From Bacillota bacterium (GTDB lineage Bacteria; Bacillota; Negativicutes; CTSoil-072): a stretch of 64,000 bases of DNA. A model generated the notes under the pieces. It ran no database searches and was not told the origin of the DNA. It was given only the letters and a program-made list of their open reading frames with translations. How positions within the stretch are numbered: the stretch's first letter is position 1; each line of letters begins with the position of its first letter. The translations under genes were made by a program, and so were the position numbers. The stretch spans positions 62,001 to 126,000 of the forward strand of contig JAGFZV010000004.1 of assembly GCA_017889545.1 (NCBI GenBank). Reading direction: 5' to 3'. Shown here piece by piece: positions 6,276 through 37,579 of this stretch.

Positions 6276-7550
6276 GTGGTGAGAGAATTGTCAAAAATGG
6301 TCAAAAATATTGCTATTATTGGTAATGGATGTGCGGCGGTAGAATGCATAAAAGCCTTACGGGAGTGCGGGTGCAACGATACTATACACTTGTTTTCTGA
6401 CCACAGCTACCCAGTGTATAATCCGATGCTCACAACTTATTACGTAGCAGGCAAGATTGATTTTTCGAAGCTTTTTCCTTTTGGGACGAACGATGAATTG
6501 GCGAGGACATTTAATGTCCGTTTTCATACCAGATCACCTGTTATGACTTTGGACACAACAGAGAAAGTGATTGTTACTGCCGATGGTTTAGCCGTATCGT
6601 ATGATCGCTGTCTCATTGCCAGCGGAGCTTCGCCAGTGCGGCCGCCCATAGAAGGCATTCACTCGGGTCGAGTCTACACGATGCGTACGGTTGAAGATGC
6701 CATAGGTCTAAAAACTGCTCTTGAGCAAAAGCCAACAAGGGTATTGGTAGTGGGAGCTTCCATGGTGGGAATTAAACTGGTTGAGCTATTTCGCGCAGCA
6801 GGAATAGACGTCTGTCTGGCTGACTTGGCAACTCATCTTTTTCCAGCGGCCGCTCATCCTGATTGTGCTGCGGTGCTTGCTGAACGACTAAGGGAAAACG
6901 GGGTTGATTTGCGCTTTGGAACTTCTTTGACTAGGTTGGAAGAAAGCGGAGCAGGACTTCTTGCCTATTTTGCCGGCGATACTATGCCGGAACGTGTCGA
7001 TTTGGCGGTTATTTGCATTGGTGTGCGGGCCAATACGGCTTTTGTTGACCGAAACTGTATTGATACCGCCGCTGGCGTATTGGTCAACGAGCGCATGGAG
7101 ACCAACGTGCATGGTGTATATGCAGCTGGTGACGTAGCTCAAGGCCGAAACTTGCTGACAGGGCAGCCTCAGATTGTTGGTCTTTGGAGCAATGCCCGCT
7201 ATCAGGGGAGGACAGCAGGAAGAAACATGGCAGGAGAACATGACGTTTTTCCCGGGAATATTCCTCACAATATTACTCACTTTATGAATATGGACTTTAT
7301 CGGTATTGGGGATGTCAAGAACTATGACAAGATGCGTAAATATTGGGACGGCAATCATTTTATACAACTTTTTTGGCAAGAAGGACTGATTACCGGCGCG
7401 AACTTGGTTGACAGCTATACTTCTTCCGGTGTTATCAGACAAGCTTTAATCAAAGGGCTCCAACAAAGCTGCGTTCATAATCAGGGAACAATGCCGTTGG
7501 TGCAAGACTTACTCATTAGAAAAATCATAATGGAGGTAGAGCAAGCATGA
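6276..7550 (+). CDS. FAD-dependent pyridine nucleotide-disulfide oxidoreductase
   Basis: The ~424-residue flavoprotein has an FAD-binding GNGCAAVE Rossmann motif near the N-terminus, a second NAD(P)H-binding fold (VLVVGASMVGIKLVE) near residue 155 and the FAD-contacting AAGDVAQG near residue 285. This is the NirB/rubredoxin-reductase-like class without a redox-active CxxC pair. The stop overlaps the ATG of the molybdopterin oxidoreductase (ATGA, 7547-7550), so the two are translationally coupled and it probably passes electrons between NAD(P)H and the molybdenum enzyme through the ferredoxin encoded next. GAGAGG and GGTGG precede the tandem GTG codons at 6276/6279; a TTG at 6288 is another option. 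Confidence 0.85.
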   Translation: MVRELSKMVKNIAIIGNGCAAVECIKALRECGCNDTIHLFSDHSYPVYNPMLTTYYVAGKIDFSKLFPFGTNDELARTFNVRFHTRSPVMTLDTTEKVIVTADGLAVSYDRCLIASGASPVRPPIEGIHSGRVYTMRTVEDAIGLKTALEQKPTRVLVVGASMVGIKLVELFRAAGIDVCLADLATHLFPAAAHPDCAAVLAERLRENGVDLRFGTSLTRLEESGAGLLAYFAGDTMPERVDLAVICIGVRANTAFVDRNCIDTAAGVLVNERMETNVHGVYAAGDVAQGRNLLTGQPQIVGLWSNARYQGRTAGRNMAGEHDVFPGNIPHNITHFMNMDFIGIGDVKNYDKMRKYWDGNHFIQLFWQEGLITGANLVDSYTSSGVIRQALIKGLQQSCVHNQGTMPLVQDLLIRKIIMEVEQA

Positions 7551-9712
7551 GCGATGTGCAAAGATTGCTGCAAGGCAAGATTCCTGGTGCGGCGACAGGA
7601 ATTGAGGTTAAAAAGTCCATATGTGCGATCTGCGATCCCTTGACCCAATGCGGTCTCGACTTATATATTCAAGATGGCCGTATCATTAAAGTGGAAGGCA
7701 GTAAGGAAAACCCTTACAGCAAAGGCACATTGTGTTCCAAGGGAGCATCCACCCGTCAGTATGTTTATAGTGACGACCGAATCCAAACACCGCTAAAACG
7801 GGTTGGTCCCCGGGGTGAAGGTAAGTTTGAACCGATCACTTGGGATGAAGCGCTTGACACTATTGCCAGCCAGCTCAAGCAAATTAAAGAACAGGCGGGT
7901 CCTGAGACGGTTGGCTTTTTTGCCGGTTATGCAAAGTTCTTCCGTCCCTTCCTTAAACGTCTGGCTCATTCCTTTGGATCGCCTAATTATATGACGGAAT
8001 CCAGCTCTTGCTATCAAGCGATGTCTATGGCGCAAAAGTTGGTTTTTGGACGTCCGGGTGGACCTGACATTATGCGTGCCGACTGCCTGCTGGTATGGAG
8101 CGCGAATCCTTTCCATGCCAATCCAGGTAATGGCCGGGCAATTCAGAACGCCAAGGAACGAGGGATGAAACTCATTGTCGTTGATCCGCGCGTTACACCA
8201 ACTTCCGCATTGGCTGATCTTCATCTGCAACTGCGTCCTGGTACCGACGGCGCCCTGGCGCTGGCAATTGCCCATGTGATTATTAAAGAAAAGTTGCATG
8301 ACCAGGACTTTGTTGCCAGCTATACTTATGGATTTGATGAGTATAAAGAATACGTACAAGCCTTTACACCGGCGAAGGGCGAAGAATTGACCGGTGTGCC
8401 AGCCAGTAAGATTCAAGAAGCAGCCCGAATGTATGCTTCTGTTAAACGGGCTGCAATCTTGCCAAGTGCATCTTCGGTAGTACATCACACCAATGGGGTG
8501 CAAAATTATCGCGCTGTTTTTGCTTTAGCTGGACTGACAGGCAACTATGATGTACTGGGCGGCAACCTTGTAAATCCGCCCAGCTTTATCCATACTCCAG
8601 GTCTGATACCAACCCGTGAACATGATTTCGTCCAGTCGCGGCCCTGGAGCGATATGCCTCCGCGCATCGGCGCGGACCGCTTTCCTGTCTGGATGGACAT
8701 TATTGATGAAGAAGCGCAAGCAATGCATTTGCCGGAACAAATCCGTACCGGCAGTCCATACCCGGTCAAAGCTTTGCTGGGATTTGGGCTAAACTATCGT
8801 ATGTGGCCTGATTCGGAAGGCTTCCGCAAGAGTCTGGAAATGCTTGATTTCTTTGTTAATGTCGATATTTTCATGACGGATACTTGCAAGTATGCTGATA
8901 TTGTTTTGCCGGCCTGTACTTCGGTGGAACGGAGCGAATTGCGCTGTTATGGCGCCGGCTACATTGTATTCACTCAACCGGCGATCGCACCACGCTATCA
9001 GTCACGTTCTGATATCGATATCATTTACGATCTGGCCTCCCGCCTTGGGCTTGATGATCCTCTATTTCAGGCCGGACTTGATGCAAGCATTGATTGGATA
9101 CTTGAGCCGAGCGGCATCACTGCAGCCGAATTAAAAAAACATCCGGCTGGAATGTTTGTGCCAAATCCAATCAAACCCCAGGAAAGAAAGTACCGCGAAA
9201 TCGACTTTGCTACTTTGTCAGGTAAAATGGAATTCAAATCGAAAGTGCTGGAAAAATATGAGGATAAATCTGGTCACGCAGCACTGCCTGTCTATACGCC
9301 ACCGAAGTATAGTCTTGAAGCAACACCGGAATTGGCAAAAGACTATCCGTTTATCCTCAACACCGGTTCCCGGCTTCCAATGTTTGTTCATACCCGAACC
9401 TTCCGGTTAAGCTGGACGAGCAGCCTTCGGCCAAACTTCCCCTCCGCAGACATGAATCCCACTGATGCCGTTCGCCTTGGCATCAGGCAGGACGATACTA
9501 TCCGGATCATTACTCCTAAGGATGCTGTCAGCGTTAAAGCGAATCTTACCGGCATGGTTCAGCCCGGGGTGATTCACATGTATCATGGACACCAAGCTGC
9601 CGATGTCAATCGCCTGTTTGAAGAGGACTATCTTGATCCGCTGTCGGGTTTTCCGGGTTTCAAATCAGCGCTATGCAAAGTGGAGAAGGCCGACGAAAGG
9701 GTGGTGCTGTAA
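7547..9712 (+). CDS. Cytoplasmic molybdopterin oxidoreductase (DMSO reductase family)
   Basis: The 721-residue protein has the full domain order of the family: N-terminal [4Fe-4S] domain, molybdopterin-binding domains and a C-terminal dinucleotide-binding domain (about 600-715). It has no Tat signal, so it is cytoplasmic. The cluster ligands appear to be C26, C29, C35 and C63. The spacing C-x2-C-x5-C is two residues longer than the usual C-x2-C-x3-C. The likely molybdenum ligand is C155 in SSSCYQAMS. It lies between the FAD subunit and the ferredoxin subunit, and the ferredoxin start follows its stop directly. The substrate cannot be read from the sequence. Confidence 0.85.
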   Translation: MSDVQRLLQGKIPGAATGIEVKKSICAICDPLTQCGLDLYIQDGRIIKVEGSKENPYSKGTLCSKGASTRQYVYSDDRIQTPLKRVGPRGEGKFEPITWDEALDTIASQLKQIKEQAGPETVGFFAGYAKFFRPFLKRLAHSFGSPNYMTESSSCYQAMSMAQKLVFGRPGGPDIMRADCLLVWSANPFHANPGNGRAIQNAKERGMKLIVVDPRVTPTSALADLHLQLRPGTDGALALAIAHVIIKEKLHDQDFVASYTYGFDEYKEYVQAFTPAKGEELTGVPASKIQEAARMYASVKRAAILPSASSVVHHTNGVQNYRAVFALAGLTGNYDVLGGNLVNPPSFIHTPGLIPTREHDFVQSRPWSDMPPRIGADRFPVWMDIIDEEAQAMHLPEQIRTGSPYPVKALLGFGLNYRMWPDSEGFRKSLEMLDFFVNVDIFMTDTCKYADIVLPACTSVERSELRCYGAGYIVFTQPAIAPRYQSRSDIDIIYDLASRLGLDDPLFQAGLDASIDWILEPSGITAAELKKHPAGMFVPNPIKPQERKYREIDFATLSGKMEFKSKVLEKYEDKSGHAALPVYTPPKYSLEATPELAKDYPFILNTGSRLPMFVHTRTFRLSWTSSLRPNFPSADMNPTDAVRLGIRQDDTIRIITPKDAVSVKANLTGMVQPGVIHMYHGHQAADVNRLFEEDYLDPLSGFPGFKSALCKVEKADERVVL

Positions 9713-10240
9713 ATGGACAAAACTATTTACCTTGATGTAAAACGCTGTGTTGGCTGCGGGGCCTGTGTCGTTGCTTGCATGGACCAGAACGATATTTATC
9801 CTGAAAAGGGTCAGCCGGCTAACCGGCGAGTTTATCAAATTGAAGAAAATCAGGATCAAGGTATTGACATTTGCTATCTTTCCGTTGCCTGCCAGCATTG
9901 CGAAGACAGTCCGTGCACGATGGCCTGTCCAACCGGTGCGATTAGGAGGGATGCTGCCACTGGTGGCGTAGCCGTCAACAAAAGCCTCTGTATTGGCTGC
10001 CATAGTTGTGCCATAGCCTGCCCCTTTGGCGTGCCCCGGTATGATGCCGAAGGGAAACTGCAAAAATGCAATCTTTGCAGTGAACGGGTAGAGGCTGGAC
10101 TTGAGCCTGCCTGCGTAAGGGTGTGCCCCCAGGGAGCACTTATCTTTGACAATGCCAACAGTGTGCAGTCATTAAAAGAAGCAGCTGCCGCAAATAATAT
10201 TGCCCGAATTATCCGGACTCAAGGGGATGGTTGCAATTAA
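9713..10240 (+). CDS. Four-cluster ferredoxin subunit (DmsB/HybA type)
   Basis: The 175-residue protein carries four [4Fe-4S] motifs: CVGCGACVVAC near residue 12, CQHCEDSPCTMAC near 60, CIGCHSCAIAC near 93 and CNLCSERVEAG..CVRVC near 119. This is the electron-transfer subunit of a complex iron-sulfur molybdoenzyme. There is no Tat signal or membrane anchor, which agrees with a cytoplasmic complex. Its ATG follows the molybdoenzyme stop with no gap, so the three genes form one operon. Confidence 0.9.
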   Translation: MDKTIYLDVKRCVGCGACVVACMDQNDIYPEKGQPANRRVYQIEENQDQGIDICYLSVACQHCEDSPCTMACPTGAIRRDAATGGVAVNKSLCIGCHSCAIACPFGVPRYDAEGKLQKCNLCSERVEAGLEPACVRVCPQGALIFDNANSVQSLKEAAAANNIARIIRTQGDGCN

Positions 10241-29753: not shown

Positions 29754-29783
29754 TTCGACAGGAAAACGTTGTGATATGTCGAA
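29754..29783. promoter_or_regulatory. Paired Spo0A-box-like inverted repeat at the hydrogenase operon
   Basis: TTCGACA (29754-29760) and TGTCGAA (29777-29783) form a perfect 7-bp inverted repeat immediately before the maturation protease start. Each half matches the 0A-box core. The position, overlapping the region just upstream of the start, would suit repression. Confidence 0.4.
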
Positions 29784-29794
29784 CAATGTCTAAC

Positions 29795-30277
29795 ATGAGA
29801 AAAATTATTGTGATTGGTTTTGGAAATATTTTGATGAGCGATGACGGAGCCGGTATTTGCGTTATCAAACGTCTTTCGGAATATTCTTCATTGGAAAATG
29901 TGCAACTGATTGACGGTGGAGTGGCGTCGTTCGAAGCCCTTGATGCAGTTCGTCTGGCTGATCATATTATTGTGATTGACGCTTTGGCTGGTGGCGGGGT
30001 CCCGGGTGATATTTACCGGCTTACAGATGAGAATATGACAGAGGATGCTTCGTCGCTCCCGCTCTCTTTGCATGACGGCACATTGCTGCAATCCCTAAAA
30101 CTTGCGCGATGCGCCGGTTCCATGCCGCCAGTGACGATTTACGGAATTGAACCTGGCAATCTTTCATTTGGAATGACGCTGACCCCTGCTGTTATGAATG
30201 CGGTTGATCGTTTGACCGATATCTTGGCTGCCGAGTTGGCTGACGGCCATCCGATCATCGCCAGGAAAGAGGAATAA
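29795..30277 (+). CDS. Hydrogenase maturation endopeptidase (HyaD/HybD family)
   Basis: The ~160-residue peptidase M52 protein begins MRKIIVIGFGNILMSDDGAG, with the family's GxGNxLxxDDGxG nickel-binding motif, and has VIDALAGGGVPG and LSLHDGTLLQSL carrying the other metal ligands. It removes the C-terminal peptide of the [NiFe] large subunit after nickel insertion. The large subunit encoded 4 kb downstream has a cleavable tail. Candidate starts are 29771 (GTG), 29786 and 29795 (ATG); none has a good RBS. Confidence 0.88.
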   Translation: MRKIIVIGFGNILMSDDGAGICVIKRLSEYSSLENVQLIDGGVASFEALDAVRLADHIIVIDALAGGGVPGDIYRLTDENMTEDASSLPLSLHDGTLLQSLKLARCAGSMPPVTIYGIEPGNLSFGMTLTPAVMNAVDRLTDILAAELADGHPIIARKEE

Positions 30278-30319
30278 AAGTTGCTAAAAGGATAATGCTA
30301 AAGGAGGAATACTACAAGT

Positions 30320-32500
30320 ATGGCGGCAAAACCATTTTCCCGACGGACTTTTTTGAAGGCGGCAGGTGTTACGCTGGCGGCAGCAACCGGTGATATTTTT
30401 GCTTTCAACGACTGGCTGGCCAAGGCGAAAGCCGCAGAAGTCAGCAAAATACCCTCCATTTGCGGCACTTGTTCTGCGTGGTGTGGTATGTGGATCTATG
30501 TTAAGAATGGCCGTATCTGGAAAGCGACTGGTCAGAAGCAGCATCCGGCCAGCAAGGGAAAACTTTGTGCCCGGGGTCATGCCGGTATCATGTGGGCTTA
30601 TAATAAAGACCGCATTACTCATCCAATGAAACGGATGGGTGATAACTGGTTTGAACCCATATCGTGGGATGATGCTTACAGTGAGATTGCGGCAAAGCTG
30701 CAAAAAGTTCTCACTGATTATGGTCCGCAAACCGTGTTTTACAGCCAAAATGCAAAACCGACCAGTCGCTATTATATGCAGCGGTTTATGCATGCCATTG
30801 GCGCTCCAACAATTCACTCGCATCATTCGATCTGCAGCACGGCGCGCGATGTGGCCAACAAATGGACAACAGGCGCCATGGCTACTGCTGATATGGCCAA
30901 TGCCAAGTGCATACTGTTTTTAGGGCGCAGCTATGCGGATGGCATTTCACCTTCTGCCACGGCTAATTTGGCAGACGCCAGAGAACGTGGTACAAAAGTA
31001 ATCATTGTTGATCCGCGGTACAGTTCTTCTTGTATTTTAGGCGACCAATGGGTTCCTATTCGCCCCGGAACAGACTTGGCTTTGCTGCTGGCTATGGCTC
31101 ATGTTCTTTTGGAAGAAAATCTTTATGATCCCGACTTCATTGAACAATATACGGTTGGTTTTGATGAATTCAAAAAGACTATGCTTTCATACACACCGGA
31201 ATGGGCAGCCGGAATCACGGACATACCTGCTGAAACCATTCGTACTATCGCCCGCGATCTAGGGAAAAATCGCCCGGCATCCTGTATCGAGCAAGGCTAT
31301 AAGGCCCCGAACGGAGCGAATTATGTTAATGGGACCCAGACGTTCCGCATGATGATCTGCATCAATGCGCTTTTGGGGAATTATGGTAAAAACGGTGGCA
31401 TGAAATTTCCCCTTAATCCGAAACTGGGGGAATTGGATCCGAAACAGTACCCTGTCCCGCCCAAACCCAAGGTACCACGCTGTGATGGGGTCGGTATCAA
31501 AGGCGAATACCCACTTTGTCAGACCAGTCAGGGAATACCGCATCTCATGCCGAAAAAAGCGATGGAAGGAAAAGCGAAAGCTGGTTTTATCTATAGTTTT
31601 AATCCAGCACGCAATTCTCCTGATCCCAAATTGATGGTTGATGGTTATAAAAAACTGGAGTTGCTGGTGGTTTGCGATATCCAGTGGTCGGAAACAGCTA
31701 TGGCAGCCAGTTATGTCTTGCCGGAATGCAGCTTTGTGGAGCGGGAAGATTTGCCAACAGGAATAGCGGGAGGTAAACCCGCAGTCACGATGCGTTGTCA
31801 GGCCATTGATCGAATTCATTCCCAAACGAAACCTTTTGAAGAGATTGTCACCGGCCTGGCTGGAAAAATGGGACTCCAAAAATATTTTGACTTTAGCCGG
31901 GAAGAAGTCGCAACCGCCATGCTCAAACCCTTGAAACTCACGACGGAAGATTTACGCCAGAAAGGGACAATTGTGTTGGACGGTAAAGCCAAGGAACTGT
32001 CCTTTGCCACCGAATCCGGTAAGGTAGAACTTTATTGCAAGGCATTTGCCGACAATGGATACGATGCGGTTCCAGTCTGGCAACCGCCACTGGCGAATGC
32101 CGGTAAAAACAGTTTTGTGTTAATTCACGGAAAACAGGGCATTATGTCTCATACGGCGACGGCCAATATTCCAGGATTATTGCAAATCGCGAAAAATTAT
32201 AATTTGGAGCGGATCTGGATTAACCCCGCGAAAGCCAAACGACTGGGAATAAAAGACGGTGAATTGGTTGAGGTATCCTCGCCTTATACTTCAAAACAGG
32301 TTCGGGTAAAAGTAACTGAGCGGGTACATCCTGATGCCGCTTTTCTTCCGGCGGGTTATGGCAACTTGTCGCCTTGGCTGAAAACAGGTTACGGCTTTGG
32401 GATCAATCCGAATGATTTCTGCCCCCACCGTGTTGAAGCCATCTCCGGTCACGCCATGATGATGGAAGTCGTGGTAACAATCCGAAAGGTAGGTGAATAA
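30320..32500 (+). CDS. Tat-exported molybdopterin oxidoreductase (PsrA/PhsA-like)
   Basis: The 726-residue protein starts with a Tat signal (SRRTFLKAAGVTLAAATG, RR at 8-9). The [4Fe-4S] ligands are C48, C51, C55 and C83 in normal spacing. The likely molybdenum ligand is C172 in HHSICSTARD, the arrangement seen in polysulfide and thiosulfate reductases. The C-terminal dinucleotide domain is intact. It is followed three bases later by a ferredoxin subunit and then by the hydrogenase subunits, so H2 is the probable electron donor. The acceptor is unknown; polysulfide or thiosulfate is a guess from the motif. Confidence 0.88.
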   Translation: MAAKPFSRRTFLKAAGVTLAAATGDIFAFNDWLAKAKAAEVSKIPSICGTCSAWCGMWIYVKNGRIWKATGQKQHPASKGKLCARGHAGIMWAYNKDRITHPMKRMGDNWFEPISWDDAYSEIAAKLQKVLTDYGPQTVFYSQNAKPTSRYYMQRFMHAIGAPTIHSHHSICSTARDVANKWTTGAMATADMANAKCILFLGRSYADGISPSATANLADARERGTKVIIVDPRYSSSCILGDQWVPIRPGTDLALLLAMAHVLLEENLYDPDFIEQYTVGFDEFKKTMLSYTPEWAAGITDIPAETIRTIARDLGKNRPASCIEQGYKAPNGANYVNGTQTFRMMICINALLGNYGKNGGMKFPLNPKLGELDPKQYPVPPKPKVPRCDGVGIKGEYPLCQTSQGIPHLMPKKAMEGKAKAGFIYSFNPARNSPDPKLMVDGYKKLELLVVCDIQWSETAMAASYVLPECSFVEREDLPTGIAGGKPAVTMRCQAIDRIHSQTKPFEEIVTGLAGKMGLQKYFDFSREEVATAMLKPLKLTTEDLRQKGTIVLDGKAKELSFATESGKVELYCKAFADNGYDAVPVWQPPLANAGKNSFVLIHGKQGIMSHTATANIPGLLQIAKNYNLERIWINPAKAKRLGIKDGELVEVSSPYTSKQVRVKVTERVHPDAAFLPAGYGNLSPWLKTGYGFGINPNDFCPHRVEAISGHAMMMEVVVTIRKVGE

Positions 32501-32503
32501 TCT

Positions 32504-33034
32504 ATGCCGCGCTATGCCCTATTGGTTAATTCTGAAAAATGCGTGGGCTGTTTTGCCTGCCTGGTAGCTTGCCAGCAGCAAAATCAATTGCCGCCTGAAC
32601 AGGCTCTAATCCGTTTTGAAGACCGTGAAAAAGGAAAATTCCCGAATGTTTCTTACAGAATAATTCCCTTGCAATGTCAGCACTGCAGTGATGCGCCCTG
32701 CGTGCCGGTTTGCCCTACGTCTGCATCGCACAAAGATAACACTGGAGTCACATTGATTGATGATGAGAAATGTATGGGCTGCCGCCGTTGCATGGCGGTT
32801 TGTCCATACAATGCCCGCGTCTACCGGCCGGAGGAAGGAATTGTCGCTGCATGTAACCTCTGCCTGTCACTTGTCGCCGCGGGACAAGAGCCTGCTTGCG
32901 TTGCTACCTGTCTTACCAAAGCCCGTTTATTCGGCGACTTGGATAACCCTCAGGGAGACTTTGCCCGTTTACTGGCGAAAGCTGCTCCATTGCGACCGGA
33001 TTTCGGCACAAAGCCAACCGTGCTGTATATTTAA
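32504..33034 (+). CDS. Four-cluster ferredoxin subunit of the H2-linked molybdoenzyme
   Basis: The 176-residue protein has four [4Fe-4S] motifs: CVGCFACLVAC near residue 12, CQHCSDAPCVPVC near 59, CMGCRRCMAVC near 91 and CNLCLSLVAAG..CVATC near 117. It resembles PsrB/DmsB. It has no Tat signal of its own and would be exported with the catalytic subunit. It links the molybdoenzyme upstream with the hydrogenase small subunit downstream. Confidence 0.9.
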   Translation: MPRYALLVNSEKCVGCFACLVACQQQNQLPPEQALIRFEDREKGKFPNVSYRIIPLQCQHCSDAPCVPVCPTSASHKDNTGVTLIDDEKCMGCRRCMAVCPYNARVYRPEEGIVAACNLCLSLVAAGQEPACVATCLTKARLFGDLDNPQGDFARLLAKAAPLRPDFGTKPTVLYI

Positions 33035-33058
33035 TGATGGGGTTAGGAGGAAAAGAGG

Positions 33059-34036
33059 ATGCGTTCATTAGATCGTCGTGAATTTTTGCATTTGTGCGGC
33101 GCGACCGGTACTGCTTTGGGATTATCGCAGATCTTGATGCCGGATATCATTGAAGCCTTTAGCGGTCCTGCAGCCGGCCACCCGCCGGTAGTCTGGCTTC
33201 AGGGAGGTTCCTGCAGCGGCTGTTCCGTTTCGCTGTTAAACAGTGTTGGGCCGGAAATCGGCGAAGCATTGACCGGGGTCATTAGTCTTAAATTTCATCA
33301 GACCTTGATGGCTGCCGCCGGAGATCAAGCCATGGATGTTTTGGGCCAAGTCCGCAAACAATATGCCGGCCAATACTATCTAGTCATTGAGGGAACCATT
33401 CCTGTTGCAGCGGATGGAAAATTTGCCACATTGGGCGAAGAAAATGGACGGGCAGTACCATTCGTTGTCCGAGTAAAAGAAATGGCACGCGATGCTAAAG
33501 CGGTTATGGCTGTAGGTTCCTGTGCCGCGTTCGGCGGGATACCCGCTGCCTATCCCAATCCGACCGGTAGTAAATCAGTCGGAGAAATCATTCGTGGTGT
33601 TCCGCTGGTTAATGTTCCCGGTTGTCCGACTCACCCAGACTGGGTGTTGGGAACTCTGCTGCACCTTATCCATTATGGAGTGCCGGAGCTGGATGCGCTG
33701 AAGCGGCCTAAGCTGTTTTATAACACGTTGATCCACGACATATGTGAACGCCGTCCGGCTTTCGATGAAGGACATTTCGCTCACCGCTTGTCGGAGCGAG
33801 GCTGCCTTTATAAACTAGGCTGCAAAGGGCCGATGACCTATGCCGACTGTCCGAGCCGCAAGTTTAACAACAACGTCAACTGGTGCGTGGGTGCCAATTC
33901 TCCCTGTCTTGCTTGCGTTGAACCGTCTTTTCCGGACGACAGTGAACCGTTCTTTATTAAGATGAAAGAGTATGGTCCGGCCGGTACTGCAACTCCTCAG
34001 CCGCATACTGGCAGAATCACCGGAGGTGGTAATTAA
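33059..34036 (+). CDS. [NiFe] hydrogenase small subunit, Tat-exported
   Basis: The 325-residue protein has a Tat motif at the N-terminus (LDRREFLHL). The proximal cluster ligands are C52 and C55 in GGSCSGCSVSLL, plus cysteines in VGSCAAFGG and PGCPTHPDW. The medial and distal cluster ligands lie in LIHDICERR, GCLYKLGCKGP, ADCPSRKF and NWCVGANSPCLAC. It is shorter than HyaA/HybO and ends in a polar tail with no C-terminal transmembrane helix, so the enzyme is not anchored in the usual way. It overlaps the large subunit gene by one base. AGGAGG precedes the ATG. Confidence 0.93.
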   Translation: MRSLDRREFLHLCGATGTALGLSQILMPDIIEAFSGPAAGHPPVVWLQGGSCSGCSVSLLNSVGPEIGEALTGVISLKFHQTLMAAAGDQAMDVLGQVRKQYAGQYYLVIEGTIPVAADGKFATLGEENGRAVPFVVRVKEMARDAKAVMAVGSCAAFGGIPAAYPNPTGSKSVGEIIRGVPLVNVPGCPTHPDWVLGTLLHLIHYGVPELDALKRPKLFYNTLIHDICERRPAFDEGHFAHRLSERGCLYKLGCKGPMTYADCPSRKFNNNVNWCVGANSPCLACVEPSFPDDSEPFFIKMKEYGPAGTATPQPHTGRITGGGN

Positions 34037-35436
34037 TGCGCCAAATCGTCATTGATCCAGTCACTAGATTGGAAGGTCACTTGAAAGTAATGGTAACGGT
34101 AGATAAGGGCGTGGTCTGCGATGCCCAAATTGCCGGAACCTTATATCGAGGTTTTGAAACGATCCTCGCCGGTCGCGATCCCCGCGACGCTGTGTTTCTA
34201 ACTCAGCGCATCTGTGGTGTTTGTCCGGCAGATCATGCTACTGCTGCAGCATTGGCCCTTGACGTTGCCTGCGAGATCGAAGTCCCCGCCAATGGCCGTT
34301 TATTACGCAATATTATTCTTGGCGCCAACTACTTGCAATCGCATATTACGCACTTCTATCATTTATCCCTGGCTGATTACGTTGTGCTGCCGGAAACAGC
34401 GCCTTTTATTCCTCATTACCGAGGAGATTTTCGCTTGAACCAAGCGGCAACAGACAAACTCGGCAGCCATTATTTCACTGCTCTGGCCATTCGACGCAAG
34501 TGCCACGAATTGATCGCTCATTTTGCCGGGAAGATGCCGCATCAAGCAGCGATTGTCGCAGGCGGAACTTCTCGGAATGCCTCACCGGAACGGATCCAGG
34601 CGGCCAAAAGTCTATTGGAAGAAATCGCTGCCTTTATCAATAATGAATACGAGGAAGACGTCCGTCTATTGGCCCGCGCTTATGATGATTATTTTTCAAT
34701 GGGAAAAGGATGCGGCAATCTACTGACCTATGGGGCTTTCCCCCTGAATGACGCATCAACTGAGATGCTCTTTAATAGCGGTATTTTCCTCAACGGACAA
34801 GTTGAAAAGATGGATCCTGCGCTAATTACAGAAGATGTTTCTCATGCTTGGTATGCAGCTGGTTCAGAAGGAAGTCCGGACGCAGTCCATACTGTAGCCG
34901 ATCCGGCGAAATCAGGCGCCTACAGCTTTGTTAAAGCGCCGCGTTATGGAAATGCCGTATGCGAAGTCGGTCCACTGGCGCGCATGTGGTTATCAGGAAT
35001 TTACACAAATGGCATTTCGGCCATGGACAGGATCGTTGCTAGGATGCTGGAAGCAAAAGTCATGACCCGCAGTCTGGAACGTTGGCTGAGAGAAGTAAAC
35101 CCGGAAAATGCCTGTGAAGCCGAAGTGCATATTCCCTGGGAAGCAAATGGAGTTGGCATGACGGAAGCGGCACGCGGCGCTCTCGGTCACTGGGTTAAAA
35201 TCAACCGGGGTAAGATTGAACGTTACGAGGCTGTTGTTCCGACTACCTGGAACGCATCTCCACGTGATAAGAATGGCCGCATGGGAGCAATTGAAAGCGC
35301 TCTTATTGGTCTGCCGGTACCGGATGAAGCCAATCCTCTCAGTGTAGTTCGAACCATCCATTCGTTTGATCCCTGCCTTGCCTGTGCTGTGCACCTAATT
35401 ACGCCGGACAAACCACTTGGACAGTTTATCGTCTAA
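34036..35436 (+). CDS. [NiFe] hydrogenase large subunit
   Basis: The 466-residue subunit holds the NiFe(CN)2CO centre. The L1 motif RICGVCPADH gives C60, C63 and H67, and the L2 motif DPCLACAVH gives C447, C450 and H453. After H453 a 13-residue tail remains, which the M52 protease encoded at the head of the cluster would remove. DPVTRLEGHLK at the N-terminus is also diagnostic. All four nickel cysteines are present, so it should be active. It belongs with the group 1 (exported) hydrogenases. Confidence 0.95.
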   Translation: MRQIVIDPVTRLEGHLKVMVTVDKGVVCDAQIAGTLYRGFETILAGRDPRDAVFLTQRICGVCPADHATAAALALDVACEIEVPANGRLLRNIILGANYLQSHITHFYHLSLADYVVLPETAPFIPHYRGDFRLNQAATDKLGSHYFTALAIRRKCHELIAHFAGKMPHQAAIVAGGTSRNASPERIQAAKSLLEEIAAFINNEYEEDVRLLARAYDDYFSMGKGCGNLLTYGAFPLNDASTEMLFNSGIFLNGQVEKMDPALITEDVSHAWYAAGSEGSPDAVHTVADPAKSGAYSFVKAPRYGNAVCEVGPLARMWLSGIYTNGISAMDRIVARMLEAKVMTRSLERWLREVNPENACEAEVHIPWEANGVGMTEAARGALGHWVKINRGKIERYEAVVPTTWNASPRDKNGRMGAIESALIGLPVPDEANPLSVVRTIHSFDPCLACAVHLITPDKPLGQFIV

Positions 35437-35466
35437 GGTTTAGTAGAACAGGGAGGTAAAACAATA

Positions 35467-36105
35467 ATGGAAGATATCACAATAAATGCAGAAAGATATC
35501 GGATTGCTATTTACCATATGTTGTCTGATGCATTGAAAGAACCTGGAAAAGACTATGAAGGAGTACAACAAAAAAATGTAGATTTTCTGGAAACGGCTTT
35601 TCAGACGCTGCAGTATTCTATCGATCGGGCAAATTATCAATCCTGGCCCGAATTAGCCAGTGATGTAAGCGCACTCAAAAATGACTATCGTCTTAGTTTT
35701 ATTTACCCGGTAGAAAAAAGAGTATTGCCGGTAGAATCAATTTATCGACAATGGACATTCGATCCAACTGTTGAAGTTCCTTTTGCCAAAGAAAAAGGCT
35801 ATTTAATGAGCGATTTTGCGCTGCATATGCAGGCATTATACGTCCAATACAACTTGAGTATTCCGCAAGAATACGACAGCATGCCTGACCACTTGTGCCT
35901 GGAACTGGAATTTTGCGCTTTTTTGCTTGCGCATGAAAGCAAAGAACGCCAGGCTGTTTTCATCAAAGAACATCTTAGTTGGGTGGAAGAACTCTATCAG
36001 GATGCGGTCAAACAAGATATCCCGATGTTTTATCAGCAAGTGATCAAGGTAATCGCTGAATTTTTAAAGTATGAGATGCATTCGAGTGAAAAACAAACAG
36101 CATAA
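35467..36105 (+). CDS. TorD-type molybdoenzyme chaperone
   Basis: The 212-residue all-helical protein has the TorD/DmsD-family signature PDHLCLELEFCAFLL near residue 140, preceded by YVQYNLSIPQEY. Such chaperones bind the Tat signal and help insert the molybdenum cofactor. Its place at the end of the cluster fits service to the exported molybdoenzyme at 30320. GGGAGG precedes the ATG. Confidence 0.85.
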   Translation: MEDITINAERYRIAIYHMLSDALKEPGKDYEGVQQKNVDFLETAFQTLQYSIDRANYQSWPELASDVSALKNDYRLSFIYPVEKRVLPVESIYRQWTFDPTVEVPFAKEKGYLMSDFALHMQALYVQYNLSIPQEYDSMPDHLCLELEFCAFLLAHESKERQAVFIKEHLSWVEELYQDAVKQDIPMFYQQVIKVIAEFLKYEMHSSEKQTA

Positions 36106-36214: not shown

Positions 36215-37579
36215 ATGGCAGGAGCACCACAATCCAGTCTACCGTTTGTAAAAAGGGACGATACTTGGGCGATTATTATCGCTTTATCGTTGACGGTAGG
36301 GATAACATTTACTTTTTTGTATGGAGGGTATGACTTTTTTAAAAGTCTGGCCGTAAGCGTTCCGAGCTGGTCGAATGATTTTGGGAAAGTGACGACTGCT
36401 CTTGGCAAAAATCCCATGGGACTCTTTAACTTATTTGCATTTTTTATAATCACATTTTCGATCGGCGCGAAAGTAATGGGCTATAATGTAAAACGGTTCT
36501 TGGTTGGATTTACAGCTCTTTACATTTTATCGGTGTTAATTACGATCCTCGGCTCTAATCAATTCATGAAAACATACCAGTTGGAAACACCTTTATTGGC
36601 ATTGGTGTTTGGTATGCTTGTCAGCAATACAGTTAAACTGCCGGCATGGTTCCAGGAAGCATTGCGCACTGAATTTTACGTTAAGACAGGGATTATTTTG
36701 ATGGGTGCGACATTGCCGTTTACCATTATCATGAAAGCTGGTCCTTTGGCTATGCTGCAAGCGACCATCGTCTCGGCGATTACTTTCTTTACTATTTTCA
36801 TGGTTGCTACCCGGGTCTTCAAAATGGATCCACGGTTTGGCGCCACTTTAGGTGCAGGCGGTTCTGTTTGTGGAGTTTCTGGTGCGATCGCAGTCGGAGG
36901 TGCGTGCCGCGCTGAGAAAGAACATGTGTCGATTGCTATTTCGATGGTTGTTATTTTTGCTGTGATTATGATTGCAATTTTGCCAATTGCTGCGAAACAG
37001 CTGGGAATGGAACCAGGGCCTGCCGGCGCGTGGATTGGTACTTCAGAGTTTGCTGATGCTGCTGGATTTGCCGCGGCTGAACAGTATAATTCAATGGTCA
37101 ATTTACCGGCTGGCGATGACCGGGCCGTTAAGACATTTACATTAATGAAGGTTGTTGGCCGTGATATGTTCGTTGGTTTGTGGGCGTTAATGGCAGCCAT
37201 TCTATCCGTTACTGTATGGGAAGTGAAAACGGCAGTTCAAGCGGAACGGATTGACTACGGCGAAGTGTGGCGGAGGTTCCCCAAATTTGTAATTGGTTTT
37301 TTTGTAGCATCCATCTTTACAACGCTGGTTGTTGCGAGTCTGGATCCAAAAACGGGAGCCGCGTTTTCAAAAGATGCGTTGGGAACGATTAAAACTTTGC
37401 GCGGCTGGACGTTTACCTGGACGTTCTTGAGTATTGGTTTTACAACCAGGTTCCGGGAGCTTACCTCATTTGGCTGGAAGCCGCTCTTGGCGTTCCTGAT
37501 CGGGGTTCTTATCAACGTACCGCTGGGATACTATTTGTCGAATGTAGTCTTTATTGATTACTGGCTAAGTGTGAAGTAA
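36215..37579 (+). CDS. YeiH/UPF0324-family transporter (putative sulfate exporter)
   Basis: The 454-residue membrane protein has about eleven transmembrane helices. YVKTGIILMGATLPF and GAGGSVCGVSGAIAVGGA are hallmarks of the UPF0324/YeiH family, annotated as putative sulfate exporters, though the substrate is not proven. It follows the H2-linked molybdoenzyme cluster by 110 bases with its own RBS (CAGGAGG). If that complex acts on sulfur oxyanions, a sulfur-anion transporter next to it would make sense. Confidence 0.85.
   Translation: MAGAPQSSLPFVKRDDTWAIIIALSLTVGITFTFLYGGYDFFKSLAVSVPSWSNDFGKVTTALGKNPMGLFNLFAFFIITFSIGAKVMGYNVKRFLVGFTALYILSVLITILGSNQFMKTYQLETPLLALVFGMLVSNTVKLPAWFQEALRTEFYVKTGIILMGATLPFTIIMKAGPLAMLQATIVSAITFFTIFMVATRVFKMDPRFGATLGAGGSVCGVSGAIAVGGACRAEKEHVSIAISMVVIFAVIMIAILPIAAKQLGMEPGPAGAWIGTSEFADAAGFAAAEQYNSMVNLPAGDDRAVKTFTLMKVVGRDMFVGLWALMAAILSVTVWEVKTAVQAERIDYGEVWRRFPKFVIGFFVASIFTTLVVASLDPKTGAAFSKDALGTIKTLRGWTFTWTFLSIGFTTRFRELTSFGWKPLLAFLIGVLINVPLGYYLSNVVFIDYWLSVK

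Follow-up and report, generated by a model that had tools for sequence, protein, structure and literature searches.

An exported [NiFe] hydrogenase and a Psr/Phs-like molybdoenzyme in a conserved gene cluster of Negativicutes that lacks a membrane anchor gene

Results

Six genes in one direction

Six head-to-tail genes, all on the + strand, lie at positions 29771-36105 of the window, the stretch of 64,000 nucleotides (nt) that was analysed here (Bacillota bacterium; Negativicutes; CTSoil-072; assembly GCA_017889545.1, contig JAGFZV010000004.1, positions 62,001-126,000). According to the open reading frame (ORF) list, Pfam and NCBIfam, they encode, in order, a hydrogenase maturation protease of the HycI/HyaD family (HycI; 29771-30277; PF01750, E = 8.6e-21; TIGR00072, 120.7 bits versus a cut-off of 47.45), a molybdopterin oxidoreductase exported by twin-arginine translocation (Tat) that resembles the catalytic subunits of Psr and Phs (MoA; 30320-32500; PF00384, PF01568 and PF04879), a PsrB-like ferredoxin subunit with four [4Fe-4S] clusters (FeS; 32504-33034; PF13247), the Tat-exported small subunit of a [NiFe] hydrogenase (HysS; 33059-34036; PF01058 and PF14720; TIGR00391, 289 bits versus 179.5), the large subunit, a cysteine version of the NiFeSe clade (HysL; 34036-35436), and a TorD-type chaperone, presumably for MoA (35467-36105; PF02613, E = 5.8e-17). 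The intergenic gaps range from -1 to 42 nt, and each of the five downstream genes has a purine-rich ribosome site ahead of it; scans of the sequence for promoters and terminators yielded no more than expected by chance. The GTG start of HycI is uncertain, as homology begins about nine codons into the ORF.

Tat motifs are present in MoA (RRTFL) and HysS (RREFL), and neither FeS nor HysL has a signal peptide. None of the four core proteins (MoA, FeS, HysS and HysL) has a membrane helix: no stretch of 19 residues exceeds a Kyte-Doolittle mean of 1.6, the highest value (1.58) falling within the part of FeS that holds the clusters, and the C-terminus of HysS is hydrophilic and without a helix. An earlier reading of this DNA, the original prediction, had proposed six genes in one direction from protease to TorD, Tat export of the molybdoenzyme and the small subunit, and the lack of both an anchor and a C-terminal helix in the small subunit, and these features are all borne out.

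The hydrogenase subunits

HysL exceeds the cut-off of the NiFeSe_hydrog family (NF033181, 613.4 versus 600), and its best matches in the PDB are all [NiFeSe] enzymes, headed by Desulfovibrio HysA (5jsu). It scores under the cut-offs of the H2_NiFeSe models, and its DPCLAC motif has cysteine, not selenocysteine, at the terminal nickel ligand, as in all ten relatives. The motif RICGVC is present, and DPCLACAVH is followed by 13 residues, which form a normal cleavable processing tail; both CxxC nickel motifs are complete (C60, C63, C447 and C450, invariant in 11 homologues), so that the complete active site and cleavable tail of the original prediction are recovered. The best PDB match of HysS is D. 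vulgaris HysB (2wpn). HysS contains the ligand cysteines for three [4Fe-4S] clusters, invariant in ten homologues; as in HysB, the medial cluster has a fourth cysteine (VNWC), and therefore all three clusters are expected to be of the [4Fe-4S] type. Group 1a [NiFe] hydrogenases, which have been described as periplasmic and as including [NiFeSe] variants (PMC5037454), are the nearest known class to HysSL.

The other hydrogenases of the HysL superfamily in the class share 37-46% identity and have no MoA, and a cytochrome b gene adjoins at least five of their examined loci. Several further hydrogenases were observed. The large subunits of loci L066-L075 and L115 (Negativicutes), paralogues of HysL, represent an unusual hydrogenase class: their N-terminal motifs read FPVTRVHEPL, or a close variant, versus DPVTRLEGHL, with histidine at the usual glutamate, and several appear to stop right at DPC..CAVH or a few residues on. 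The HysS proteins of L114 and L115 are about 90 residues longer. A third, very divergent hydrogenase, with 36-38% identity to HysL, is represented by a pair of small and large subunits in genome G029 (L056, 6335-8660) and by a large subunit in G002 (L114, 13417-14805). The genome from which the window derives also encodes a Hyd-1-like hydrogenase with cytochrome b (contig C28) and a group 4-type energy-converting hydrogenase operon, the large subunit of which has both CxxC motifs (contig C31; L077).

The molybdoenzyme and its ferredoxin subunit

The best NCBIfam match of MoA is PhsA, the cut-off of which is not reached (461.7 versus 694 bits); a paralogue on contig C40 of the same genome passes it with 968 bits. 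In the PDB, MoA matches best Thermus PsrA (2vpw, E = 2e-100), and its C172, kept in all homologues aligned, corresponds to the molybdenum ligand Cys173 of PsrA. The cysteines of the FS0 cluster (48, 51, 55 and 83) are invariant as well. FeS is colinear with PsrB, its best PDB match (2vpw_B), over residues 1-176, and all of its 16 cysteines are invariant in nine homologues, in agreement with the four-cluster ferredoxin proposed originally. A joined model of MoA and FeS reached a predicted local distance difference test score (pLDDT) of 86.6 and a predicted template modelling score (pTM) of 0.78, and its best structural match is PsrA. Of the substrate-binding residues of PsrA, R81 is conserved as R85 in MoA; R332 is replaced by tyrosine, but PhsA also deviates here, with tryptophan, and the position is not diagnostic. 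Two others, at positions 130 and 144, were left out of the comparison, because the chain shows residues there that differ from those expected.

Formate dehydrogenases have a histidine directly after the cysteine or selenocysteine of the molybdenum site. In MoA this residue is a serine (C172-S173), and the Fdh-alpha model scores 291.7 against a cut-off of 666; a formate dehydrogenase was thus judged unlikely. The same judgement was reached for a non-catalytic molybdenum subunit of the QrcB/OmeA kind. The sequence places MoA nearest to Psr/Phs and not to nitrate or arsenate reductases (ArrA model, 144 versus 1600), so that the range of likely acceptors is narrower than the list proposed originally, with polysulfide and thiosulfate as the main candidates. 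It should be noted that hydrogenases are reversible in principle, that the Psr/Phs/Srr family includes the selenite reductase SrrA (PMC10100899), and that 16 positions of MoA are invariant in its clade with residues that no outgroup sequence shares, among them V600, the majority having arginine there, so that the pocket may differ. On these grounds, one could envisage that formate or some other donor is used to form H2, or that the substrate reduced is selenite, arsenate or a metal; in view of the serine after the molybdenum ligand and of the Fdh-alpha and ArrA scores, it is nevertheless very improbable.

Conservation and origin of the cluster

Searches of 300 genomes of the Negativicutes class with HysL and with MoA retrieved the HysL clade (63-71% identity) from 11 genomes, all of which also have the MoA clade, and neither was found at that level in any of the other 289. 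The 11 carriers are spread over six family-level groups. In nine of nine carriers with contigs spanning the site, MoA, FeS, HysS and HysL adjoin one another in this order, with 60-73% identity; in the remaining two (G029 and G102), MoA is a fragment at a contig end (69% and 60% identity, respectively), consistent with the core order. The persistence of the gene order at this divergence, together with the spread of the carriers over six family-level groups, is a pattern far beyond chance. The search for the same gene order in other genomes, suggested with the original prediction, thus succeeded.

Support values of 100/100 and 98/99 show the MoA clade and the HysL clade to be monophyletic, and both trees contain the same split between the window with G021 and the families f3 and f26. 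In one subclade (the window, G021, G029 and G102), HycI adjoins the core ahead of MoA, and a TorD-type gene lies nearby, on the opposite strand beside the core in the latter three genomes; in the other (f3 and f26), the four core genes have neither HycI nor TorD beside them. Outside Bacillota, the cluster was not recovered by a pattern-based scan of genome contigs, an insensitive method that gave three carriers and one distant Desulfobulbaceae hydrogenase, and a search of plasmids gave only matches below 60% identity, the best among those listed having 28-29%. A literature search found no description of a MoA-FeS-HysS-HysL cluster. A survey of 2025 reported molybdopterin genes near many [NiFe] hydrogenases, which were read as formate dehydrogenase subunits (PMC12727194), and co-location of hydrogenase and molybdopterin genes as such is therefore not new.

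A search for relatives of MoA covered 398 genomes of the phylum. Those nearest to it in other classes (46-53% identity) are found in the arrangements MoA-FeS-NrfD-TorD, FeS-cytochrome b-MoA-TorD or TorD-FeS-MoA, and a sister group has mostly rhodanese-MoA-FeS-NrfD-TorD; none in this set has a hydrogenase beside it, most being accompanied by NrfD and one by cytochrome b. The phylogenetic check proposed earlier puts the catalytic subunit inside a Psr/Phs-like lineage. As the relatives lack an adjacent hydrogenase, the link to the hydrogenase appears to be a derived trait of one clade, and the tree would most simply be explained by replacement of a quinol-oxidising anchor by a [NiFe] hydrogenase as the source of electrons.

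Neighbouring genes

A gene on the same strand 109 nt past TorD (36215-37579) encodes a strongly hydrophobic, putative sulfate exporter of the YeiH family. It was rejected as an anchor, being a transporter and not a member of an anchor family, and dropped as a hint to the substrate, as it was not found next to the core in any relative examined. Elsewhere in the window (6276-10240), genes for a pyridine-nucleotide-type oxidoreductase, a molybdoenzyme without a Tat signal (30% identity to MoA) and a four-cluster ferredoxin follow one another, which suggests a molybdoenzyme that is linked to NAD(P)H and located in the cytoplasm.

Discussion

On balance, the cluster seems to encode a soluble H2:sulfur-compound oxidoreductase, HysSL-FeS-MoA, in which the hydrogenase stands in for the quinol-oxidising NrfD anchor of PsrABC and PhsABC. 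H2 would be split at HysL, and the electrons would pass via the three [4Fe-4S] clusters of HysS, the four of FeS and the one of MoA to the molybdenum-bis(molybdopterin guanine dinucleotide) centre; all ligands for this eight-cluster relay from NiFe to Mo are invariant. The centre would reduce a sulfur compound. Polysulfide or thiosulfate is the most likely one, given that the closest lineages resemble Psr/Phs and that several of them are linked to rhodanese. HysS and MoA would be exported via Tat and would take along FeS and HysL, and the gene for the signal-less FeS indeed lies between those of the two Tat-bearing subunits. HycI would trim HysL, and TorD would proof-read MoA. The original prediction had spoken of a merged enzyme, which is too strong for separate polypeptides encoded in one operon; its idea of one functional unit agrees with the adjacency in all spanning carriers and with the co-occurrence, whereas a single complex is what we infer from them.

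Several observations weigh against a soluble complex. The co-occurrence of the two clades has a Fisher p value of 3e-20, which ignores relatedness and overstates the significance, the carriers being related. A joined model of FeS and HysS, made as an in-frame read-through of the operon, was of low quality (pLDDT 48, pTM 0.41) and had to be discarded. With both half-reactions outside the membrane, the reaction itself would build no proton gradient, so that no energy would be conserved and the benefit is unclear. Furthermore, FeS is a PsrB-type protein, and such proteins normally contact NrfD; every one of the 11 carriers has at least one NrfD and at least one cytochrome b gene in its genome. 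The four subunits might therefore dock on an NrfD protein or a cytochrome b whose gene lies elsewhere and exchange electrons with menaquinone, as Hyd-2 does, or pass them on via the anchor, as in Dehalococcoides. What speaks most for such an NrfD partner is the arrangement in G102 (L109; C222, 1-9000), where HycI-MoA is immediately preceded, on the same strand, by an operon of rhodanese lipoprotein, PsrA, PsrB, NrfD and a second rhodanese lipoprotein; the position of this operon also hints at sulfur chemistry.

This NrfD, part of a separate Psr operon, is the sole exception to the result that the contiguous flanks of the core, in the window and in the relatives, contain no anchor gene, although an anchor conserved with the cluster, which would have spoken against the original prediction, was looked for. 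In the genome of the window, four NrfD genes were found (a PhsABC operon on contig C40, a rhodanese-Psr-rhodanese operon on C23, a gene on C50 and a DmsC-like gene on C7), and each of them shares its operon with dedicated genes for a catalytic and an FeS subunit. At E = 1e-120, searches of G002, G022, G090 and G134 yielded no homologue of the catalytic subunit of the C23-type Psr, and the single NrfD of G029, though this genome is a draft that is 92% complete, belongs to an unrelated operon that encodes Tat and FeS proteins of its own. Docking on a remote anchor is thus unlikely.

A different possibility is that the operon encodes two separate soluble enzymes, the hydrogenase HysSL and the reductase MoA-FeS, with electrons exchanged via a diffusible periplasmic carrier. 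The structurally closest proteins, the group 1a [NiFeSe] hydrogenases HysAB of Desulfovibrio, are heterodimers that work through cytochrome c3; they share with HysSL the three expected [4Fe-4S] clusters and the lack of a transmembrane anchor, but have selenocysteine instead of cysteine and no molybdoenzyme partner. In Dehalococcoides mccartyi, HupSL readily separates from HupX-OmeAB (PMC6005880). However, no gene for a carrier such as a cytochrome c is seen in the conserved core, all nine spanning genomes have FeS placed between MoA and HysS, and lineages near MoA have FeS without a hydrogenase, so that an existing MoA-FeS unit seems to have acquired the hydrogenase. Two separate enzymes are therefore distinctly unlikely.

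The complex proposed here, HysSL-FeS-MoA, resembles several known systems. In the H2:sulfur supercomplexes of Aquifex and Acidianus, a [NiFe] hydrogenase is likewise coupled to a Psr/Sre-type molybdoenzyme, but both partners are anchored in the membrane and linked through quinone. PsrABC and PhsABC share with the cluster catalytic and FeS subunits that are homologous over their full length, the cysteine ligand of molybdenum and Tat export of the catalytic subunit; in contrast, the cluster has no quinone-binding NrfD-type subunit C in its operon, has a hydrogenase instead, and stays under the PhsA cut-off. E. coli Hyd-2 (HybOABC) also combines a hydrogenase heterodimer with a four-cluster ferredoxin, but it has the NrfD-type anchor HybB, no molybdoenzyme, and quinone as its acceptor (PMC8076601). 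The organohalide respiration (OHR) complex of D. mccartyi, HupXSL-OmeAB-RdhAB, in which HupX bridges hydrogenase and OmeA and quinone-free transfer has been proposed (PMC6005880), likewise has an outward-facing group 1 [NiFe] hydrogenase, a four-cluster ferredoxin link and a molybdopterin protein. It differs in that it has the anchor OmeB and the terminal reductase RdhAB, that HupX and HupS are each predicted to have a single membrane helix, and that the hup genes lie apart from the ome genes rather than in one operon with them; no role is known for the cofactor of OmeA, whereas MoA keeps the cysteine ligand. No genes for OmeB, RdhA or RdhB were found in or beside the cluster. By analogy, it would work like HupXSL-OmeA or the PsrAB head, but it falls under neither definition and is best called a variant among hydrogenase-molybdoenzyme systems.

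More tentatively, the cluster may represent a quinone-free and membrane-free H2:polysulfide/thiosulfate oxidoreductase, confined so far to one clade of Negativicutes, in which a [NiFe] hydrogenase has replaced NrfD and which serves as an external sink for H2 that conserves no energy but pulls an internal energy-converting hydrogenase. Speculatively, the cell might benefit from the drawing off of internal H2, for example, from the group 4-type hydrogenase on contig C31. If the complex exists, the electron input of a respiratory molybdoenzyme would be swappable, from a quinol-oxidising anchor to a hydrogenase, and four soluble proteins would form a minimal H2-driven sulfur reductase, easier to purify and to study than the membrane supercomplexes that are thought to carry out such chemistry in Dehalococcoides and Aquifex. 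One would then also have to ask how a cell profits from a reaction that resembles respiration but separates no charge.

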